A stretch of 64,000 bases of DNA, taken from assembly GCA_034521445.1 (NCBI GenBank), contig JAXHMM010000003.1, positions 310,001 to 374,000 of the forward strand. Direction: 5' to 3'. Within the stretch, counting starts at the first letter, position 1; the number at the start of each line of letters is the position of its first letter. Positions 3,839-62,806 of this stretch are shown here, piece by piece. The DNA comes from Balneolaceae bacterium. Its GTDB lineage: Bacteria > Bacteroidota > Rhodothermia > Balneolales > Balneolaceae. The notes beneath the pieces were generated by a model. That model saw nothing but the letters and a program-made list of their open reading frames with translations, ran no database searches and had not been told where the DNA came from. A program made the position numbers and the translations under genes.

Positions 3839-5935
3839 ATGAGTGCAAACAACAGCCAGACCGAGACCGACATCCCCGCCGACATCGACTGGGAGCACCT
3901 AGTGCGCCTGTTCCTGATCTCCCGCGCCATGGACGACAAGGAGGAGAACGAGCTGGTGCCCGACAAGAAGGTGCTGTATCAGTTTTCGGCACGGGGACAC
4001 GAGCTGGGTCAGATGCTGCTGGGCTCGAGGCTGAAACATCCCCATGACGGGGCCAGCGCCTACTACCGCTCGCGTCCCCTCATGCTCTCCCTGGGACTGT
4101 CGGTGGAAGACGCCCTGGCGGGTCCCATGGCCAGGTCGGGTGGCTACAGCGACGGCCGCGACATCGGCGTGGTTTGCAACATGCCCGGCGACGGGGGACC
4201 CACCGTGCTGCCCATGGCGGGGGACGTAGGCTCGCAGTACACGCCGGCCATCGGCTGGGCGCAGGGCATCCGTTACCGACGCGACGTGTTGGGCGAGGAG
4301 GAGTGCGAGGGCGCCATCTCGGTGGTACTGGGCGGGGAGGGCTCGGTGGCCACCAATGGATTCTGGTCGGCCCTCACCATGGCCACCACCCTCGACCTGC
4401 CGGTGCTTTTCTACATCGAGGACAACGGCTACGGCATTTCGGTGCCGGGCGAGTTTCAGACGCCGGGCGGCAACATCGCCAATAACCTCTACTCCTTTAA
4501 AAACCTGCGCATCTTCGACGGCGACGGTACCGATCCCGGGGAGGCGGCCTCGCTGCTGGACGAGTCGGTCAGCTACGTCCGCGGGGGACGCGGACCCGCC
4601 CTGGTTCACCTCACCATGCCGAGGCTCAACGGCCACTCCTACCAGGACAACCAGGCCTACAAGGAGGAGGAACTGATCGAACGGGAACAGGAAAACGATC
4701 CCCTGGACAAGCTGAAAGCCTTTGTGGCGGACCGCGGCATCTCCCCGCAGAAGTGGGGCAGCCTCAGGAAAAAGGCCGGCGAGGAGGTGGAACGCGCGGC
4801 GGAGGCGGCCTGGAACCGCCCCGATCCCGACGCCACCCAAACCCGGCGGTACGTTTTTACCGAATACAATGACAACGGTAAGCCCGAGGTGCAGCAGGTG
4901 GGAGGGCTGCTGGCTGGGGGACACGATTTCCCGGAGAGCGGCACGGATCCCCGCCCCGAGAAACAGCGCATCAATATTGTGGAGGCCATCCGCCGCACCC
5001 TGGCCTACGAACTGGAAACCAATCCCAGGGTGATGGTCTTCGGGGAGGACGTGGGCGCCAAGGGCGGCGTGCATGCGGCCACCATGGGACTGCAGACCGC
5101 CTACGGGCAGGAGCGCGTATTCGACACCAGCCTCTCGGAGGAGGGCATCATCGGCCGGGCGGTGGGACTGGCCTACCAGGGCCTGATGCCGGTGGCCGAA
5201 ATACAGTTCCGCAAATACGCCGATCCGGCCACCGAGCAGCTCAACAACTGCGGCACCATCCGCTGGCGCACCGCCAACAAGTTCGCCGCTCCCATCGTGG
5301 TGCGTATGCCCGGGGGCTTCGCCAAATGCGGCGATCCCTGGCACAGCGTGACCAACGAGGCCTTCTTTACCCATGCGGTCGGATGGCAGGTGGCCTTTCC
5401 CTCCAATGCCCAGGACGCTGTGGGACTGCTCCGCAGCGCCATGCGAAGCAACGACCCCACGGTCTTTTTCGAGCACCGGAACCTGCTGGACGCCAAGTAC
5501 GCGCGCCGACCCTATCCGGGCGATCACTTTGTGGTGCCCTTCGGCAAGGCGAATCGCCTGCGGGAGGGCGGGGACATGACCGTCGTAACCTGGGGCGCCA
5601 TGTGCGAGCGCTGTGAGGAGGCCGTCGAGCAGACCGGCATAGATGCCGACGTGCTGGACCTGCGCACCCTCATGCCGTGGGACAAGGAGGCGGTGATGGC
5701 GTCGGTGGCACGTACCAACCGCTGCCTGATCGTACACGAAGACACCCGCACAGCCGGTTTCGGGGCCGAAATAGGGGCGGTCATCGCCCAGGAGGGCTTC
5801 AGGCTGCTGGACGCTCCCGTCGACCGCCTCACCATGCCCGACATCCCCGTTCCCCACAACGTGGATCTCATGAACTCGGTGCTCCCGGGCGTGGACGCCA
5901 TCGCAGCGCGCATGCAGAGCCTGATGGCCTTTTGA
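3839..5935 (+). CDS. 2-oxoacid (branched-chain type) dehydrogenase E1, alpha-beta fusion
   Basis: 698 residues. The N-terminal half is an E1-alpha, with the thiamine-diphosphate motif GGEGSVATNGFW and DNGYGISVP. The C-terminal half is an E1-beta: FGEDVGAKGGVHAAT, LSEEGIIGRAVGLA, and the transketolase C-domain near VVTWGAMCERCEEAV. Known fused E1 enzymes of Bacteroidota have this layout and feed a lipoyl-E2/E3 complex making acyl-CoA from 2-oxoacids, most often branched-chain ones. E2 and E3 are not next to it. The ATG at 3839 lies 27 bases after hisC, so co-transcription is possible. Confidence 0.85.
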   Translation: MSANNSQTETDIPADIDWEHLVRLFLISRAMDDKEENELVPDKKVLYQFSARGHELGQMLLGSRLKHPHDGASAYYRSRPLMLSLGLSVEDALAGPMARSGGYSDGRDIGVVCNMPGDGGPTVLPMAGDVGSQYTPAIGWAQGIRYRRDVLGEEECEGAISVVLGGEGSVATNGFWSALTMATTLDLPVLFYIEDNGYGISVPGEFQTPGGNIANNLYSFKNLRIFDGDGTDPGEAASLLDESVSYVRGGRGPALVHLTMPRLNGHSYQDNQAYKEEELIEREQENDPLDKLKAFVADRGISPQKWGSLRKKAGEEVERAAEAAWNRPDPDATQTRRYVFTEYNDNGKPEVQQVGGLLAGGHDFPESGTDPRPEKQRINIVEAIRRTLAYELETNPRVMVFGEDVGAKGGVHAATMGLQTAYGQERVFDTSLSEEGIIGRAVGLAYQGLMPVAEIQFRKYADPATEQLNNCGTIRWRTANKFAAPIVVRMPGGFAKCGDPWHSVTNEAFFTHAVGWQVAFPSNAQDAVGLLRSAMRSNDPTVFFEHRNLLDAKYARRPYPGDHFVVPFGKANRLREGGDMTVVTWGAMCERCEEAVEQTGIDADVLDLRTLMPWDKEAVMASVARTNRCLIVHEDTRTAGFGAEIGAVIAQEGFRLLDAPVDRLTMPDIPVPHNVDLMNSVLPGVDAIAARMQSLMAF

Positions 5936-16922: not shown

Positions 16923-16982
16923 AAGTCTACTGACGTTTTAGAGTTCTATGACTACGTTAGACGTCTAGGACGTCTTGTAGTC
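16923..16982. repeat. GACnT-unit intergenic array upstream of paaJ
   Basis: Units AAGTC, GACGT, GAGTT, GACTA, GACGT and GACGT start at 16923, 16932, 16941, 16950, 16960 and 16969, a period of 9-10 bases, and TAGTC closes the run. A palindrome TAGACGTCTA lies at 16958-16967. The array abuts the paaJ ATG and resembles three other arrays in this window. Confidence 0.6.
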
Positions 16983-30422: not shown

Positions 30423-30866
30423 TTATTCCTCGCGCCGTTTTACCACCGCCAGGGTGCAGCGCGCGACGCAGACCAGCCGGTCCTCCCCGTCACGGATCTT
30501 GATTTCCCAGACCTGGGTCTGGCGTCCAATATGCAGGGGACGGGCCGTGCCCTCCACCTGCTGCCCACTGCGGGCCGGACGAAGGTGGTTGGCGTTGATC
30601 TCCACGCCCACGGCCGACTGGGTCTCCGGGTCAACCTGCAGCCAGGCGCCTACGGAGGCGAGAGTTTCCGCCAGTGCTACGGAGGCACCGCCGTGCAGCA
30701 GGCCGAAGGGTTGAACGGTGCGCCCGTCCACGGGCATGACGGCGCGGACTTCGTCTTTGGCGAAGGAGGTGAACCGGATGCCGATGGCCTCCCCCATGGT
30801 GTCGCCGGTACGCGCCAGCAGCAGCTTCACCTGCTCGCGAACTTCTTCATCGATATAAATATCCAT
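30423..30866 (-). CDS. hotdog-fold acyl-CoA thioesterase
   Basis: A 147-residue PaaI/MenI-like thioesterase with GLLHGGASVALAETLAS (catalytic Glu), GVEINANHLRPARSGQQVEG and VWEIKIRDGEDRLVCVARCT. The family hydrolyses aromatic or fatty acyl-CoA such as 1,4-dihydroxy-2-naphthoyl-CoA. It is divergent from the fadD-like gene; the 222-base gap between them is filled mostly by the GACTT/AAGTC repeat array. Confidence 0.83.
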   Translation of the reverse strand: MDIYIDEEVREQVKLLLARTGDTMGEAIGIRFTSFAKDEVRAVMPVDGRTVQPFGLLHGGASVALAETLASVGAWLQVDPETQSAVGVEINANHLRPARSGQQVEGTARPLHIGRQTQVWEIKIRDGEDRLVCVARCTLAVVKRREE

Positions 30867-30876
30867 TACGTCTACA

Positions 30877-31021
30877 AAGTCTCTTCAAGTCTATAAAGTC
30901 TAATAAGTCTATAAAGTCACAAAGTCTGATAAGTTTCAAAGTCAGCAAGTCACGCCATATATGCAACGACCTCCAACTTCAAGACTTTATGACTTATTAG
31001 ACTTTACGACTTATAAGACTT
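30877..31021. repeat. two back-to-back GACTT/AAGTC arrays
   Basis: Nine AAGTC-like units start at 30877, 30887, 30896, 30905, 30914, 30922, 30931, 30939 and 30947. Five GACTT units start at 30983, 30991, 31000, 31008 and 31017, on an alternating 8/9-base period. The two halves are reverse complements of each other over most of their length. Each half reads GACTT towards its own divergent gene (thioesterase to the left, acyl-CoA ligase to the right). Confidence 0.75.
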
Positions 31022-31088: not shown

Positions 31089-32885
31089 ATGGGATATGAA
31101 CCGACGACTCTTACTGATCTGATTGCCGGAGGCATCGAAAACAATGTGGCCGGCGTGCTGGTAGCCACCAAGCGAAACGGGGAGTGGGTGGAGACCTCCC
31201 CGGAGGAATTTCGGCGCAAGGTGCGCCACCTGGCCCTGGGGCTCCACGAGCTGGGCGTGGGGCAGGGTGACCGTGTCAGCCTGCATGCGGAGAACTCGGC
31301 CGAATGGCTCATATGTGACCAGGCCATCCTCGCCCTGGGAGCTGCCAACGTACCTATCTACACCACACAGCCGGGCGACCAGATCAAGTACATCCTGGAA
31401 AATGCCGAGGCCAAGGTGCATATCGTCTCCAACGACGAGCTCTTTGCGGATACCAAGCCCCTCATGAAGAGTATAGGGACGGTGGAGGCGGTCATCTCCA
31501 TCCAGGAATCCTCCCACCAGAAACTGCTCACCTTCGAGTCGGTGCTCGAGCGAGGGAAGCGGCGCGACCGCGAAGAGCCGGAACTCTATGACGAGATGAT
31601 TGCCCGCATCAAGCCCGACGACCTGGCCACCCTCATCTACACCTCGGGCACGACGGGCGACCCCAAAGGCGTGATGCTCTCCCACAACAACATCGCCTCC
31701 AACCTGCAGGCTTCCATGGAGCGCATCCCCTTCGAGGCCAACCCCAAACCCCATGAGCGCATGCTCTCCTACCTGCCGCTCTCCCACGTCTTCGAGCGGC
31801 TTATCTCCTATATGTACCTCTACATGGGCTACCCGGTTTATTACATTGAGGATGTGAACGAGATTCGCGACGACCTGGCCCACGTACAGCCCAAGTTTGT
31901 GGCCACCGTGCCGCGGCTGCTGGAGAAGATCCACACCGGCGTCAAGGTGAAGGGACAGGAGTTCAGCGGGATCAAGAAGCAGCTCTACTACTGGGCGCTG
32001 AACCGCGCGGAGAACTACGATCCCGAAAATCCGCCCAGCGGACTGGACGGACTCAAGCATAAGCTGGCCGACAAGCTGGTCTACTCTCAGATCCGCGAGA
32101 TGTTCGGCGAGAACATGCTGGGCTTCATCAGCGGGGGCGCCGCCCTCTCGCCCAGTATCTTCAGCTTTATCAATGCGCTGGGACTTTATTGCGGGCAGGG
32201 CTATGGACTGACGGAGTCGTCGCCGGTGATTTCGGTGACCGACGTGGACCACATGCGCATCGGAAGCTCCGGCACGCCCCTCTCCAACGTGGAGGTGAAG
32301 ATCGCCGACGACGGGGAGATCCTGGCGCGCGGACCCAATATCATGCAGGGTTATTTCCGCAATCCTGAACGCACCGAGGAGACGGTCACCGACGACGGCT
32401 GGCTGATGACCGGCGACGTGGGCAAGCTGGAGGACGGATACCTCTATATCACCGACCGCAAGAAGTCGGTTTTCAAGCTCTCCACCGGCAAGTTCATCGC
32501 CCCGCAGACCGTGGAGAACAAGCTGGTGAACAGCGGCTTTATCGATCAGTCGGTGGTCATCGGCTATCAGCGTAAGTTCTGCTCGGCCCTTATCGTACCG
32601 AATTACGAGAACGTGGCGCGGCGCCTCGGGCAAAGGGGACACGAGCTGCAGCAGCCGCGCTCGAAGGACCCCAAGGTGCGCGAACTCATTCAGCAGGAGG
32701 TGGACAAGGTGAACCGCGAGCTCAGTCCCTGGGAAACCGTCAAGAAATTCGTACTGCTGGAGGAGCCGCTCACCATCGAGGACGGGGAGCTTACGCCCAC
32801 CCTCAAGGTGAAGCGGCCCGTCATCAACGAACGTTATGCCACCGAGATCGATTCCATATACAAAGACGAGCAAGAGGAGGAATAA
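31089..32885 (+). CDS. fadD: long-chain fatty-acid--CoA ligase (AMP-forming)
   Basis: 598 residues with all ANL motifs: LIYTSGTTGDPKGVMLSHNN, SYLPLSHVFERLI, GYGLTESSPVISVTD, WLMTGDVGKLEDGYLYITD and RKKSVFKLSTGKFIAPQ. This is the eukaryote-like long-chain ACSL subgroup common in Bacteroidota. It activates fatty acids for the beta-oxidation enzymes encoded directly downstream; fadN starts 17 bases after its stop. Confidence 0.9.
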   Translation: MGYEPTTLTDLIAGGIENNVAGVLVATKRNGEWVETSPEEFRRKVRHLALGLHELGVGQGDRVSLHAENSAEWLICDQAILALGAANVPIYTTQPGDQIKYILENAEAKVHIVSNDELFADTKPLMKSIGTVEAVISIQESSHQKLLTFESVLERGKRRDREEPELYDEMIARIKPDDLATLIYTSGTTGDPKGVMLSHNNIASNLQASMERIPFEANPKPHERMLSYLPLSHVFERLISYMYLYMGYPVYYIEDVNEIRDDLAHVQPKFVATVPRLLEKIHTGVKVKGQEFSGIKKQLYYWALNRAENYDPENPPSGLDGLKHKLADKLVYSQIREMFGENMLGFISGGAALSPSIFSFINALGLYCGQGYGLTESSPVISVTDVDHMRIGSSGTPLSNVEVKIADDGEILARGPNIMQGYFRNPERTEETVTDDGWLMTGDVGKLEDGYLYITDRKKSVFKLSTGKFIAPQTVENKLVNSGFIDQSVVIGYQRKFCSALIVPNYENVARRLGQRGHELQQPRSKDPKVRELIQQEVDKVNRELSPWETVKKFVLLEEPLTIEDGELTPTLKVKRPVINERYATEIDSIYKDEQEEE

Positions 32886-32901: not shown

Positions 32902-35274
32902 ATGCCAGACAAGAGCAATTCCATTCAGAAGGTCGTAGTACTCGGATCGGGAACCATGGGCAGCCAGATTGCCGCCCACTGCGTCAACGCAGGCCTGCAG
33001 GTCACCTTATTGGACCTGAAGGAGGAGGGCGACCGGCCCAGCCGCCGCGCCGAGGAGAACATCGAAAAACTCACCGAAAGCAGCCCGGCTCCGCTGGCGC
33101 TGCCGGAGCTTGCAAGCCGCATTACCCCGGGCAATTTCGAGGATCATCTTGACGGGGCCCTGGCGGAGGCCGACTGGATCTGCGAGGCCATCATCGAGAA
33201 GATGGATGTGAAGCGGCAGATGATGGCGCGCATCCAGAAGCACCGGCGTCCCGGCAGCATCGTCAGTTCCAACACCTCCGGGCTGCCCATTGCGGAGATC
33301 GGCTCCGAATGCTCCGACGAGCTGCAGGCGCACTTTCTGGGCACCCATTTTTTCAATCCGCCGCGTTACATGAAGCTCCTGGAGCTCATCCCCACCGGGC
33401 AGACCGACCCGGAGGTGACGGCGCGCATGAAGCGCTTCTGCGAACGCACCCTGGGGAAAGGCGTGGTGGTGTGCCGCGATACGCCCAATTTTATCGCCAA
33501 CCGCATCGGCATCTTCTCCATGGCCAGCGTGATGCCCCGGTTCTTTGACGGGGACTTCCGCGCCGAGGAGATCGACTATCTTCTGGGCACCCTCACCGGC
33601 TATTCCAAGGCGGCTATTTTCCGCACGGCCGACATGTCTGGACTGGACGTGATAAGCCACGTCTGCGAGAACCTCTACCCGGCCGTACCGGACGACGAAC
33701 GACGGGAGGTCTTCAAGCTTCCCGAAGCCTTCGGGCGCATGGTTGAAGAGGGCCATATGGGCAACAAGGCCGGCAAGGGCTTCTACAAAAAAGTACGCAC
33801 CGACGGCGGCAAGGAGTACCGGGTCGTCGATCCGGACACGCTGGACTACGAATCTCAGACCGATCCGCAATTTAAGGAAGCCGACCAGGCCCGCAAGAAG
33901 GCCTCCTCGGCGGCCGAGCGCCTGCGCCTGCTGGTAAGCGAAGAGGGCAGGGTGGGGGATTTCCTCTGGGAGACCCAGGCGGACCAGATGCTCTACGCCG
34001 CGCGGCGCATGCCGGAGATCGCCGATTCGCCCGCCGACATCGACCGCGCCATGAAGTGGGGCTTCAACTGGGAGCTGGGTCCCTTCGAAAGGTGGGACGC
34101 CATCGGGGTTCGCGAGGCCGCCGAACGCATGGAAAAGGATGGACGCGAGGTGCCCGATAGCATCACCCGCATGCTCGACATCGGACGCGAGACCTTCTAC
34201 GACCGCAAGGAGGGCACCGTCTGGAACCTGGCCATCGGGGAGGCAGAACCGTTGCAGCCGCCTGCCGAAGGCTCCCTGCGCGTGGCCGACCTTCGACGGG
34301 AAGGCCGCGCGGTGTGGGAGGACGAGCACGCCGCACTCTATGACATGGGTGAGGGCATCGCCCTCTTCGAGTTCCGCACGCGCAAGCAGACGCTTGGATT
34401 TGGATTGATTCAGGCCCTGCAGAAGGCCTGCGATACGGTGCGGGAAGCTTTTGACGGGCTGGTCATTGGACACGACGGTGACAACTTCACCTACGGGGCC
34501 AACCTGATGGAGGCTGCACAGGCCTGGAAGTCGGGCGAGAAGGAGCGCGTCCGCGAGGCGGCCCGGCGCTTCCAGGAGACCGCTGTGGGACTGCGTTACC
34601 AACCCTTTCCGGTGGTGGCGGCGCCCTTCGGTCGCACCCTGGGCGGGGGTGTGGAGTTTATCCTTCATGCCGACCGCATCGTGGCCCACCACGAGCTCTA
34701 CGCGGGCATGGTGGAGGCGGGCGTGGGACTGCTTCCCGCCGGGGGCGGCACCAAGGAGATGCTGCGCCGCACCATGGAGCGGGTTCTTGAGGACGAGCAG
34801 ACCGACCCGCTGCCCTACATCCGCGAAATTTTCAAAACCCTGGGCATGGCCAAGGTCTCCGACAGCGCCGCCAAAGCGCGCGAGATGGGCTTCCTGCATG
34901 ATGCCGATACGATGGTTATGAACCGCGACCTTCTGCTGATCCAGGCCCGCGCCGAAGCCCGTCGCCTGGCCGACCGCGGTTACCGTCCCCCGGCCCCGCC
35001 GAAGATCCCCGTGCAGGGGCGCAAGGGACTGGCAAGTCTCAAACTGATGCTCTACATGATGCATGAAGGGGGTTGGATCACCGACTATGACCGGGTGGTG
35101 GGTGAGAAGATTGCAGAGGTGCTGAGCGGGGGAGACCTGAGCGAACCGCAGGAGGTACCCGAGCAGTACCTGCTCCGCCTGGAGCGGGAGGCCTTCATGG
35201 AACTGCTGGAGGATGAACGTACCATGGCCCGCATTGAGCACATGCTGGAAACGGGCAAGCCCCTTCGAAACTAA
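32902..35274 (+). CDS. fadN: FadN-type 3-hydroxyacyl-CoA dehydrogenase/enoyl-CoA hydratase
   Basis: 790 residues from the ATG at 32902. The dehydrogenase comes first (VVVLGSGTMGSQIAAHCVNA, HFFNPPRYMKLLELIP, NFIANRIGIFSMA). A second 3HCDH C-domain and then a crotonase domain follow (PFPVVAAPFGRTLGGGVEFI, ...VGLLPAGGGTKEM). This order, reversed from E. coli FadB, is that of FadN. The enzyme performs the two middle steps of beta-oxidation. It forms an operon with fadD and fadA. Confidence 0.92.
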   Translation: MPDKSNSIQKVVVLGSGTMGSQIAAHCVNAGLQVTLLDLKEEGDRPSRRAEENIEKLTESSPAPLALPELASRITPGNFEDHLDGALAEADWICEAIIEKMDVKRQMMARIQKHRRPGSIVSSNTSGLPIAEIGSECSDELQAHFLGTHFFNPPRYMKLLELIPTGQTDPEVTARMKRFCERTLGKGVVVCRDTPNFIANRIGIFSMASVMPRFFDGDFRAEEIDYLLGTLTGYSKAAIFRTADMSGLDVISHVCENLYPAVPDDERREVFKLPEAFGRMVEEGHMGNKAGKGFYKKVRTDGGKEYRVVDPDTLDYESQTDPQFKEADQARKKASSAAERLRLLVSEEGRVGDFLWETQADQMLYAARRMPEIADSPADIDRAMKWGFNWELGPFERWDAIGVREAAERMEKDGREVPDSITRMLDIGRETFYDRKEGTVWNLAIGEAEPLQPPAEGSLRVADLRREGRAVWEDEHAALYDMGEGIALFEFRTRKQTLGFGLIQALQKACDTVREAFDGLVIGHDGDNFTYGANLMEAAQAWKSGEKERVREAARRFQETAVGLRYQPFPVVAAPFGRTLGGGVEFILHADRIVAHHELYAGMVEAGVGLLPAGGGTKEMLRRTMERVLEDEQTDPLPYIREIFKTLGMAKVSDSAAKAREMGFLHDADTMVMNRDLLLIQARAEARRLADRGYRPPAPPKIPVQGRKGLASLKLMLYMMHEGGWITDYDRVVGEKIAEVLSGGDLSEPQEVPEQYLLRLEREAFMELLEDERTMARIEHMLETGKPLRN

Positions 35275-35318
35275 GACTTTAAGATCTTCTGACTTTCTAG
35301 ACTTTTAGACTTATTCCC
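35275..35318. repeat. GACTT array between fadN and fadA
   Basis: GACTT units start at 35275, 35291, 35300 and 35308, with a degenerate GATCTT at 35283, giving a period of 8-9 bases. The first unit begins right after the fadN stop codon and the last ends six bases before the fadA ATG, so the array is the whole intergenic spacer. Confidence 0.7.
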
Positions 35319-39901: not shown

Positions 39902-40025
39902 ATTTGTTAACAATTTCTTAACATCTAAGATCTCAGGTTCAAGAAATTCAGTTATTTAGGATATGCCTGACAAGACCTTTGCGGGACCCGTTATTCACAT
40001 CCCATGTTAAGAAATTGTTAAGAAA
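39902..40025. repeat. MITE-like element with inverted ends
   Basis: TTTGTTAACAATTTCTTAAC... (39903-39924) and its near-exact reverse complement (40004-40025) match in 21 of 22 positions, including a perfect 16-base core. They enclose 79 bases without a gene. TTGT occurs directly outside both ends (39898-39901, 40026-40029), a possible target duplication. It lies just past the 3' end of the Gfo/Idh gene. Confidence 0.5.
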
Positions 40026-40042
40026 TTGTGCGCGCAGAGGGG

Positions 40043-52327: not shown

Positions 52328-53506
52328 CTAGAGCATTTCCACGACCATGGCCGAGGCGCCGCCCCCTCCGTTGCAGATGCCGGCGCAGCCCAGTCCGCGG
52401 CCGGTCCGTCGCAGCGCGTGCAGCAGGGTCACCACGATGCGCGCGCCCGAACATCCGATGGGGTGCCCGATGCTGACGGCGCCGCCGTGGATGTTCACCA
52501 TTTCGGGGTCCAGCTCCAGGATGTCGTTGTTGGCCAGGGAGACCACCGAAAAGGCTTCGTTGACCTCGAAAAGACCTATGTCCTCCTTGGATACGCCGGC
52601 GCGCTTCAATGCGATGGGAATGGCGTCGGCCGGGGCAGTTGTGAACCACTCGGGGGCCTTGGCGGCGCTGGCGTGGCTGCGGATCCGGGCCAGGGGCTTT
52701 ATGCCGAGTTCTTTGGCCCTTTCAGCGCTCATAAGCAGCACGGCCGCGGCCCCGTCGTTGATACTTGAGGCGTTGGCGGCGGTGACGGTGCCCTCCTTGT
52801 CGAAGACCGGGCGGAGCTGGGGAATCTTGTCGAAGTTGACCTTCTTGAGCTCCTCGTCCATGGTCACCTTGGTGACGTTGCCCTTGCGGTCGGTTACTTT
52901 CACCTCCACAATCTCGTCGTCAAACCAGCCCTCCTCGTGAGCCTTGATGGCCCGTTTGTAGGAGGTGACTGCAAACTCGTCCTGCCGCTCGCGGCTGATG
53001 CCGCATTCCCTGGCGCAGATTTCGGCGGCGTTGCCCATGTGGAAATCATTGTAGACGTCCCACAGCCCATCCTTGATGATGCCGTCCTGCACCGAACTGT
53101 GACCCAGTTTGGAGCCGAAGCGGTGCTTGGGCAGGTAATAGGGCACGTTGCTCATGCTCTCCATGCCGCCGGCCGCAATGATATCGGCCTGTCCCAGCTG
53201 AATCTGGTCGGCGGCTACCATAATGGCCTTCATGCCCGATGCGCACACCTTGTTGACGGTAGTGGCGGGGGTCTTTTCGGTGAGGCCGGCCTTCATGGCC
53301 ACCTGGCGGGCCGGGGCCTGGCCTATACCCGCGGTAAGCACGTTGCCGAAGACCAGCTCCTGCACCTCCTTGGGGTCCAGGCCCGATTTCTTGAGGGTCT
53401 CCAGCACGGTCATGGAGCCCAGCTCGGGAGCGCTGAAAGAGGCCAGCGAGCCGTTAAAGGATCCGATAGGCGTACGCTTCGCTTCTACAATAACTACATT
53501 TTTCAT
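52328..53506 (-). CDS. acetyl-CoA C-acetyltransferase (thiolase)
   Basis: A 392-residue thiolase of biosynthetic/acetoacetyl type: VNKVCASGMKAIMVAADQI (active Cys), ...ASSINDGAAAVLLMSAERA, SIGHPIGCSGARIVVTLLHA and GICNGGGGASAMVVEML. It condenses or cleaves acetoacetyl-CoA. It is the third thiolase of the window, and like the others is directly preceded by a GACTT repeat array. Confidence 0.93.
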   Translation of the reverse strand: MKNVVIVEAKRTPIGSFNGSLASFSAPELGSMTVLETLKKSGLDPKEVQELVFGNVLTAGIGQAPARQVAMKAGLTEKTPATTVNKVCASGMKAIMVAADQIQLGQADIIAAGGMESMSNVPYYLPKHRFGSKLGHSSVQDGIIKDGLWDVYNDFHMGNAAEICARECGISRERQDEFAVTSYKRAIKAHEEGWFDDEIVEVKVTDRKGNVTKVTMDEELKKVNFDKIPQLRPVFDKEGTVTAANASSINDGAAAVLLMSAERAKELGIKPLARIRSHASAAKAPEWFTTAPADAIPIALKRAGVSKEDIGLFEVNEAFSVVSLANNDILELDPEMVNIHGGAVSIGHPIGCSGARIVVTLLHALRRTGRGLGCAGICNGGGGASAMVVEML

Positions 53507-53551
53507 AACAACCGACTTCTAGACTTTCTGACTTTCCGACTTATTAGACTC
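53507..53551. repeat. GACTT array upstream of the third thiolase gene
   Basis: GACTT units start at 53514, 53522, 53530 and 53538, with GACTC at 53547, a period of 8-9 bases. The last unit overlaps the stop codon of the upstream cystathionine gamma-synthase gene, so the array has grown into coding sequence. On the coding strand of the thiolase the unit reads AAGTC. Confidence 0.7.
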
Positions 53552-54686
53552 GAAAACTTTGATCCAAATCTTCAATTAGGTCATAAATGTCTTCAATACC
53601 CACCGAGAGGCGGATGAGCGAATCTTTCAGTCCGATCTTCTCGCGTACCTCCCTGGGGATGGAGGCGTGGGTCATGGAGGCCGGGTGGCAGACCAGCGAC
53701 TCCACGCCGCCGAGCGATTCAGCCAGGGTGAAGATGCGGGTACGGCTCATGAAATCCTTGGCGGCCTGCGCCGAGTCGTCCTTCAGCGTGAAGGAGACCA
53801 TGGCGCCGAAGTCGCTCATCTGTTTTTTGGCGATTTCGTGCTGGCCGTGGGATTCCAGCCCGGGATAGATCACGCCTCCCACCTTATCGTGCCCGTCCAG
53901 GAATTCGGCGATGGCCCGGGCGTTGGCCACCGAACGTTCAACACGAAGGGCCAGCGTTTTAATTCCCCGCAGGGTGAGGTAGCAGTCCATGGGTCCCGGC
54001 ACCGCGCCGGTGGTCTTCACCTGGAAACGCAGCTTTTCGATGAGCTCCTCGTCGGAGGTGGCCACGGCGCCCCCGATGGCGTCGGAGTGTCCGCCGAGGT
54101 ACTTGGTGGTGGAGTGCAGCACCATGTCGGCGCCCAGGTCCAGTGGCTGCTGCAGCACAGGGGAGGCGAAGGTGTTGTCGACCAGCGACACGATATCGTG
54201 CTCGCGGGCGAAGTCGGTCAGCGCCTCGATGTCCACCACCCTGAGCAGTGGATTGGTGGGCGTTTCGATCCAGATCATTTTGGTCTCAGGCCGGCGCGCC
54301 TTCCGCACCGCCTCCATGTCGGTCATGTTCACGAAGCTGAAATCCACGTCAAAGGGCTCGAATACCTGCGTGAACAGGCGGTAGCTTCCCCCGTAGAGAT
54401 CGTCGGAGGCGATGACGTGGTCGCCGCTTCGAAGCATCTTGATCACGGCGTCCATGGAAGCGCACCCGCTGGCAAAGCAGGCGCAGTATTCGGCGTTCTC
54501 CAGTCCGGCGATGAGGCGTTCCAGGGCGCTCCGTGTGGGATTGCTCACCCGCGCGTACTCGTGGCCCTTGTGCACGCCCGGCGCCTCCTGGGCGTAGGTG
54601 GAGGTCTGAAAGATGGGAGGCATGACGGCGCCGCTGGTCTCCTCGGGATGTTGACCGGCGTGAATGGTCTTGGTGTTGAACTTCAT
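53544..54686 (-). CDS. cystathionine gamma-synthase/lyase (trans-sulfuration PLP enzyme)
   Basis: A 380-residue Cys/Met-metabolism PLP enzyme with YARVSNPTRSALERLIAGLE, ETPTNPLLRVVDIEAL, the PLP lysine in LHSTTKYLGGHSDAIGGAV and SLGGVESLVCHPASMTHASI. It acts in Met/Cys interconversion; synthase and lyase cannot be separated by eye. Its C-terminal residues and stop are encoded within the repeat array shared with the thiolase leader. Confidence 0.9.
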   Translation of the reverse strand: MKFNTKTIHAGQHPEETSGAVMPPIFQTSTYAQEAPGVHKGHEYARVSNPTRSALERLIAGLENAEYCACFASGCASMDAVIKMLRSGDHVIASDDLYGGSYRLFTQVFEPFDVDFSFVNMTDMEAVRKARRPETKMIWIETPTNPLLRVVDIEALTDFAREHDIVSLVDNTFASPVLQQPLDLGADMVLHSTTKYLGGHSDAIGGAVATSDEELIEKLRFQVKTTGAVPGPMDCYLTLRGIKTLALRVERSVANARAIAEFLDGHDKVGGVIYPGLESHGQHEIAKKQMSDFGAMVSFTLKDDSAQAAKDFMSRTRIFTLAESLGGVESLVCHPASMTHASIPREVREKIGLKDSLIRLSVGIEDIYDLIEDLDQSFRV

Positions 54687-58728: not shown

Positions 58729-58816
58729 TACCCTGCATGCCGGACGAAGCATGTCGGGTGACCGGTTTGCGGCCGACAGGGCCGTTTTGCGACCGACGGG
58801 GCCGTGTCATTCTGCC

Positions 58817-62179: not shown

Positions 62180-62806
62180 TTACTCTTCCTGCTTGCTTTC
62201 CCACGCCCGCTGCACGGTGACGCGGTCTTCGTCCCCGGGTACGAAACCTTCCAGTTCCTCCAGGGGAGTGTTTCGAATGTGGTCGATGGCCTCCTTGGCG
62301 TTCATATCGGTGGAAACCTTTGTGGGGGCCTCGCCGCCGGACTTGGCGTCAGCCTTCGGTTTCGACTTGGATTCAGACTTGGCTTCGGACTTCGCCTTGG
62401 CCTTCGATTCCGCGGCCTCCTTGCCGGAAGCGCTGTCCGTTTTGGCCTTCTCGTCCTTTTTCGTGGACTTGGCGCTCTTTTTGGCGCCGCCGGAGGAGGA
62501 GATGTCGGTGATTTCGAGGCGGGACATGGTCTGGCGGTGGCCCGTCCTCTTCTGGTAGCCCTTGCGGCGTTTTTTCTTGAAGACGATCAGCTTGTCGGCC
62601 TTTACGTTGTCCACCAGGTCCGCCGTCACGCTGGCGCCCTCGATCACAGGCTTGCCCACGATCACGCCGCCGTTGTCATCCTTGATCAGCATGACCCGGT
62701 CAAAGTTAAGGGTGATGCCGGCTTCGTCGCTCTGTTTGTCTACAAAAATGACATCGCCTTCGGAAACCCGGTACTGATGTCCTCCAATTTCAACTACTGC
62801 GTACAT
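62180..62806 (-). CDS. rplU: 50S ribosomal protein bL21 with long C-terminal extension
   Basis: 208 residues from ATG 62806. The first ~103 are a normal bL21 (MYAVVEIGGHQYRVSEGDVI, KADKLIVFKKKRRKGYQKRT, GHRQTMSRLEITDI). The rest is an added tail: a low-complexity Lys/Ala/Ser stretch (about 105-160) and a small, acidic, probably folded end (EAIDHIRNTPLEELEGFVPG). The normal protein is half this size. The tail has no function that I recognise. Confidence 0.95.
   Translation of the reverse strand: MYAVVEIGGHQYRVSEGDVIFVDKQSDEAGITLNFDRVMLIKDDNGGVIVGKPVIEGASVTADLVDNVKADKLIVFKKKRRKGYQKRTGHRQTMSRLEITDISSSGGAKKSAKSTKKDEKAKTDSASGKEAAESKAKAKSEAKSESKSKPKADAKSGGEAPTKVSTDMNAKEAIDHIRNTPLEELEGFVPGDEDRVTVQRAWESKQEE

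Follow-up and report, generated by a model that had tools for sequence, protein, structure and literature searches.

The sequence analyzed (the window) is a 64,000-nt stretch of contig JAXHMM010000003.1 from a Balneolaceae bacterium. A divergent spacer in the window separates a thioesterase gene on the minus strand (30423-30866) from a gene with a fadD-type start codon at 31089 and holds two runs of the pentamer GACTT, which point away from each other. The minus-strand arm (30877..30951) has eight exact cores, all written AAGTC on the plus strand, and its 3' end lies 11 nt from the thioesterase start codon; it is followed by a 31-nt center (30952..30982) and then by the plus-strand arm (30983..31021), which has five exact cores and ends 68 nt upstream of the fadD-type start codon. 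Another plus-strand array, with four exact cores and one double step (35275..35312), takes up the greater part of the 44-nt spacer between the stop codon of a fadB-type gene (35272-35274) and the start of a fadA-type thiolase gene (35319). A further four exact cores (53514..53542, plus strand, so that the coding strand reads AAGTC) occupy the spacer between the stop codon of a cystathionine gamma-synthase-type gene (53544-54686, minus strand) and an acetyl-CoA C-acetyltransferase-type thiolase gene (minus strand, start at 53506). Steps between cores in these arrays are 8 to 10 bases, with a few double steps. NCBIfam named a thioesterase, a FadD-type ligase, a FadB-type dehydrogenase, and PcaF-, FadA-, and acetyl-CoA C-acetyltransferase-type thiolases at the window sites, in agreement with the genes given in the initial annotation (a thioesterase, a fatty-acyl-CoA ligase, and three thiolases).

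That annotation, made from the window alone, had claimed four GACTT sites, with arrays before all three thiolase genes and none noticed elsewhere. Three sites were found again (30877-31021, with its two arms, 35275-35312, and 53514-53542), but the fourth (16923..16982, minus strand), before the PcaF-type thiolase gene, is a GAC-rich spacer with 8-9-base spacing in which a single exact GACTT core stands among GACGT- and GACTA-like units; it is not an array of this family, and arrays precede two of the three thiolase genes. When the 5-mers of the window were ranked by triples at steps of 6-11 bases, GACTT/AAGTC came first (6 and 4; at most 2 for the others), and no further arrays were found there. 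Other repeats in the window include the 11-base ATTTCTTAACA, present in two copies at 39902-39923, whose exact reverse complement, TGTTAAGAAAT, is repeated slightly more than twice about 80 nt further on at 40005-40029, so that the two direct repeats are inverted relative to each other, and a 20-base tandem repeat, CCGTTTTGCGACCGACAGGG (2.2 copies), at 58762-58805. A 12/36-base tandem repeat at 62338-62410 contains GACTT at 12-base steps and overlaps long open reading frames (ORFs); with a period that is a multiple of three, it is probably coding and unrelated to the arrays.

Beyond the window the claim of absence failed: GACTT-N3-4-GACTT-N3-4-GACTT had 413 exact matches in the assembly (3.2 Mb, 18 contigs), and the reversed-pattern control had 0. 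About 1.17 Mb was read in stretches, of which 874 kb was contiguous sequence unselected for arrays and the remainder was picked around known arrays; gene calling relied on a home-made codon model in place of a standard caller, which leaves some starts uncertain. The unselected 874 kb contained 38 arrays with 285 cores, and none was found in any of five 874-kb draws from a first-order Markov null. Scaled by triples, the genome would hold about 91 arrays and, scaled by length, about 139 (overall, an estimated 90 to 140); the genome-wide search proposed in the initial annotation thus points to roughly a hundred arrays, beside genes of all kinds. The 1.17 Mb contained 74 arrays; one of them, a long, coding-like repeat on contig C2, was excluded from most later counts. 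This repeat (C2:33062-33327; 5062-5327 of locus L245) has 22 GACTT cores in a 24-base higher-order period, lies off called gene boundaries, and is probably coding.

The 3' end of the GACTT strand faced a stop codon in 46 of the 74 arrays and a start codon in 21 and was distant from either in 7, with a median distance to the gene boundary of 0 nt. The stop codon was touched or overlapped by 34 of the 46 stop-side arrays. Among 36 single arms, the 3' side was the one closer to a gene in 30 (median, 3.5 nt on the 3' side versus 37 nt on the 5' side; P = 2e-4). Arrays occurred in convergent, tandem, and divergent spacers, and 35 of the 38 arrays in the 874 kb had at most half of their length in called coding sequence. 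Two-arm sites in the unselected sample were present in 5 of 59 convergent spacers versus 3 of 380 other spacers (odds ratio, 11.6; P = 0.0015); single arms in the same sample showed no convergent enrichment. At one gene end (C3:428325-428385, locus L019), GGAAGAGTGCTGAAAGACTC and its complement flank TTTC as a perfect inverted repeat of 20 bases, directly before a single GACTT arm. Tandem (stop/start) spacers held arrays in both orientations (14 and 13), and no single RNA-level role therefore fits all sites. A leader controlling translation, which the initial annotation had offered as one of three ideas, did not hold up as a general role, given these nearly equal orientations and the many arrays that end at a stop codon. 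Shine-Dalgarno-like 4-mers occurred before starts at no more than the random rate (0.168 versus 0.175), and an array in the ribosome-binding region thus displaces no Shine-Dalgarno site.

Genes downstream of arrays are mostly housekeeping genes. Of 33 such genes, 5 were acyl-CoA genes (4 of them the window's own, the other an acyl-CoA dehydrogenase gene at one further genome site), 17 had other named functions, 7 had no NCBIfam match, and 4 were unscanned; the named ones include NuoB, RibF, Fmt, GatC, HPr, HPRT, ApsK, NuoJ, S18, Upp, PdhA, MtnA, RNase HII, RsmD, and SucC. The initial annotation had also proposed that the arrays bind a regulator of CoA-thioester catabolism, and the window itself invites this reading, as its sites adjoin two thiolase genes, a thioesterase gene, and an acyl-CoA ligase gene, to which the dehydrogenase site can be added. 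We consider such a regulator very improbable, however, in view of the small acyl-CoA share of the downstream genes, the position of most arrays at stop codons, and an array density in the window close to that of the genome as a whole, where 854 kb had 36 arrays at 29 sites. Arrays stand upstream of all kinds of genes, an outcome that the annotation had itself named as contrary to its proposal. An acyl-CoA regulon operator was rejected on the genome-wide survey and the neighbor functions, the sites being neither confined to nor enriched at acyl-CoA genes.

Within arrays, the core was far more constant than what lies between cores. Steps in the first sample were mostly 8 nt (159) or 9 nt (42), and steps of 7 or 10 nt were rare; a middle unit flanked by exact cores was itself GACTT in 186 of 192 cases (98 of 102 in the first sample). 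The spacers of 3 to 4 nt were spread over the bases at their positions, the first being mainly a pyrimidine, and adjacent spacers were identical in 16 of 181 lag-1 comparisons versus 14.6 after within-array shuffling (P = 0.38). Slippage of simple units was rejected because adjacent spacers were no more alike than shuffled ones. Scored for arrays, intergenic spacers were nearly two-valued, with a strong array or none, and intermediates of the kind expected of half-decayed arrays were rare. The GC content of the spacers between cores was 0.53 in the 5' half of the arrays versus 0.23 in the 3' half (P = 8e-6) and so drops toward the gene, near which ATTA, TAA, and TATA were frequent. Opposite arms pointed outward, as (AAGTC)n-center-(GACTT)n, in all 18 pairs of this genome. 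Across 22 genomes that had been picked for carrying arrays, and which therefore measure polarity and not prevalence, the outward pair pattern had 192 matches in 12 genomes (48 in this genome and 89 in a Nitrospirae genome; overlapping matches counted), and the inward pattern of identical form had 1 match in 1 genome. A general purine/pyrimidine skew of spacers, considered as a source of this polarity, was absent from array-free spacers and was rejected.

Outward arms are also predicted to fold. If they formed long rods at the ends of convergent transcripts, richer in GC at the apex and in T along the outer arms of either strand, the two-arm sites could be bidirectional terminators or 3'-end hairpins, and all 18 indeed folded far below their dinucleotide shuffles (z = -5.4 to -11.2; mean, -7.5). 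The outward polarity is terminator-like (A-rich before, T-rich after), and the excess of two-arm sites in convergent spacers is consistent with this reading. However, spacers of facing arms did not covary beyond chance, which leaves the cores as the main source of pairing; arms swapped between sites folded equally well or better, and shuffling spacers within arms weakened folding only slightly (z = -2.0). Neither the spacer shuffle nor the partner swap supported a selected hairpin, and the stem showed no compensatory change. Furthermore, 36 arms stand alone, with no partner opposite them within 120 nt; some arrays precede an ordinary hairpin and T-run (for example, at site 273459); the divergent window site gave no terminator-like match; and most sites read in the Nitrospirae genome were in tandem spacers. 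Rfam 15 gave no match above the gathering score in the window. The terminator reading covers the polarity, the GC-richer center, and the convergent pair excess but not the single arms, the start-side arrays, or the absent covariation, and we regard it as unlikely.

The GACTT triple was absent from 55 of 58 relatives (same family or order, other genera), with one match each in the other 3; among 395 sampled genomes of the phylum it was absent from 342, and the next highest count was 92. The spacer between the fadB-type and thiolase genes, compared across relatives along the lines that the initial annotation had suggested, was unrelated in sequence; in some relatives it was plain and short, and in others it contained repeats of its own (GAGTA-like, TGTCGGA, CGGAT-, or TACT-like). 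In 100 kb from each of eight relatives, varied repeats occurred at low frequency, some as paired arms, and its single dominant core sets this genome apart from those eight. Paired arms with other cores were purine-left in 5 cases to 1, a sample too small to rely on. One relative (G007, L220-L224) had dense GGCAGAA/TTCTGCC, GTACTAG, and GAATTAAG repeats; about 16 of its spacers per 100 kb bore repeats, more than in any other relative read. An exact 4-unit, 8-nt GACTT array occurred in scattered bacteria among the matches listed (one genome per species), in which spacers were uniform in many cases and mixed in Mucilaginibacter, Chitinophagaceae, Nitrospirae, and some others. Whole-genome counts of the triple were 179 in Nitrospirae RIFCSPLOWO2_02_FULL_62_14, 167 in Mucilaginibacter RYN_326, 164 in a Bacteroidetes metagenome-assembled genome (MAG), 151 in a Planctomycetota MAG, 122 in a Saprospiraceae MAG, and 85 in Flavobacterium caeni; viral contigs had the pattern at 14 loci, mostly with uniform spacers. 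The reversed control (TTCAG every 8-9 nt) was frequent in three genomes (G441, 94 matches; G158, 17; G178, 21), each of which appears to use its own repeat core.

These comparisons bear on the main rival to a functional element, a passive, lineage-specific repeat with arrays that are young or re-made. The arrays would then be a functionless mutational product of fold-back or misaligned replication in intergenic DNA, with one core per lineage, stopping at coding sequence. This is quite possible: the orthologous spacer or other thiolase starts in some relatives hold different short repeats, some of them outward pairs; arrays here reach into ORF ends and fill spacers, covering the stop codons of both partners; neighbor genes have no functional bias; and GACTT arrays in many other genomes have uniform, slippage-like spacers. 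Against it, the core in this genome is nearly invariant, adjacent spacers are unrelated, half-decayed arrays are rare, and no mutational process obviously accounts for the outward-only polarity (192 to 1). The third idea of the initial annotation, a fast-evolving spacer repeat, thus fits the relatives, most of which lack the core and some of which carry other repeats in the spacer, but not the fixed core and the fixed outward polarity.

We tentatively favor, as having close to an even chance, the reading that the arrays are a genome-wide gene-boundary repeat element with a putatively recognized core, and not the regulon of a pathway. Selection on a recognized core would account for its near invariance among unrelated spacers, and some factor probably does recognize it. 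In each arm the GACTT cores recur every 8-9 nt up to a 3' end that is rich in AT and lies at a start or stop codon, and two arms sharing a spacer always point outward. Selection would keep the core because a cellular factor recognizes GACTT as DNA or nascent RNA, and each array would offer that factor many cores in a row. The putative action would be at gene boundaries generally, to insulate, to pack the chromosome, or in a 3'-end or termination role. This selection is deduced from a single genome and not from orthologous spacers, as the relatives include no second genome of the genus, and a core free of selection could look conserved if the arrays were all young and born with mixed spacers. 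In the one family searched, PF01402 (ribbon-helix-helix), this genome had two members, one of them short and antitoxin-like, and neither was a convincing candidate for the core-recognizing protein; 9 of 18 sampled relatives had members as well.

A broader proposal, which we think rather improbable, is that such arrays form a class of gene-boundary elements across phyla, in which each lineage has its own short core, GACTT in this case, in outward arrays at gene ends, read by a dedicated nucleic-acid-binding system that moves or re-evolves between phyla. If this were true, the gene boundaries of each carrier would be punctuated throughout its genome. Slippage is the usual explanation for short intergenic repeat families, but it leaves unexplained the invariant core among unrelated spacers, the outward polarity across several phyla, and the pinning to gene ends; these features raise the question of what reads or writes such arrays. 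The window also illustrates that an apparent pathway motif in one stretch of DNA can belong to a genome-wide element.

Arrays of short boxes are known as targets of small proteins. The 8-bp boxes of MetJ form a ribbon-helix-helix operator array, and parH of TP228 is a ribbon-helix-helix centromere array bound by ParG (PMC7308502). Such arrays resemble the GACTT arrays in lining up short boxes separated by AT-rich spacers, and they are coated by a small protein; however, they occupy one or a few sites per replicon, whereas GACTT arrays number about a hundred, at gene ends. Repetitive extragenic palindromic (REP) sequences are dispersed, extragenic, and palindromic (PMC3733652); they are palindromes of 20 to 40 bp with a tag at one end, whereas GACTT arrays are built on a 5-nt core and about half lack a facing arm. 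The long simple sequence and heptanucleotide repeats of prokaryotes are exact tandem copies ascribed to slippage (PMC4679880); like the GACTT arrays they are lineage specific, short, and often in spacers, but neighboring spacers in the GACTT arrays are unrelated rather than identical. The closest described kind is the intergenic TAACTGA-type repeat, of which we read the GACTT arrays as a variant. TAACTGA heptamers form intergenic direct repeats in Beggiatoaceae, Cyanobacteria, and some Bacteroidetes (MacGregor 2015, PMC4679880); their function is unknown, and translation control has been proposed (PMC4679880). In the BOGUAY genome they are mostly forward and directly before start codons, and the main genome of that study has one indirect repeat beside 169 direct sets (PMC4679880). 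Both kinds are short, mostly intergenic direct-repeat arrays, often near start codons, patchy across phyla and absent from some close relatives, with neighbor genes that show no functional pattern. They differ in that TAACTGA is an exact 7-mer, whereas the GACTT arrays combine a 5-nt core and variable spacers of 3-4 nt in steps of 8-9 nt, face a stop codon in 46 and a start codon in 21 of 74 cases, and have paired arms that always point outward and a gradient in spacer composition.
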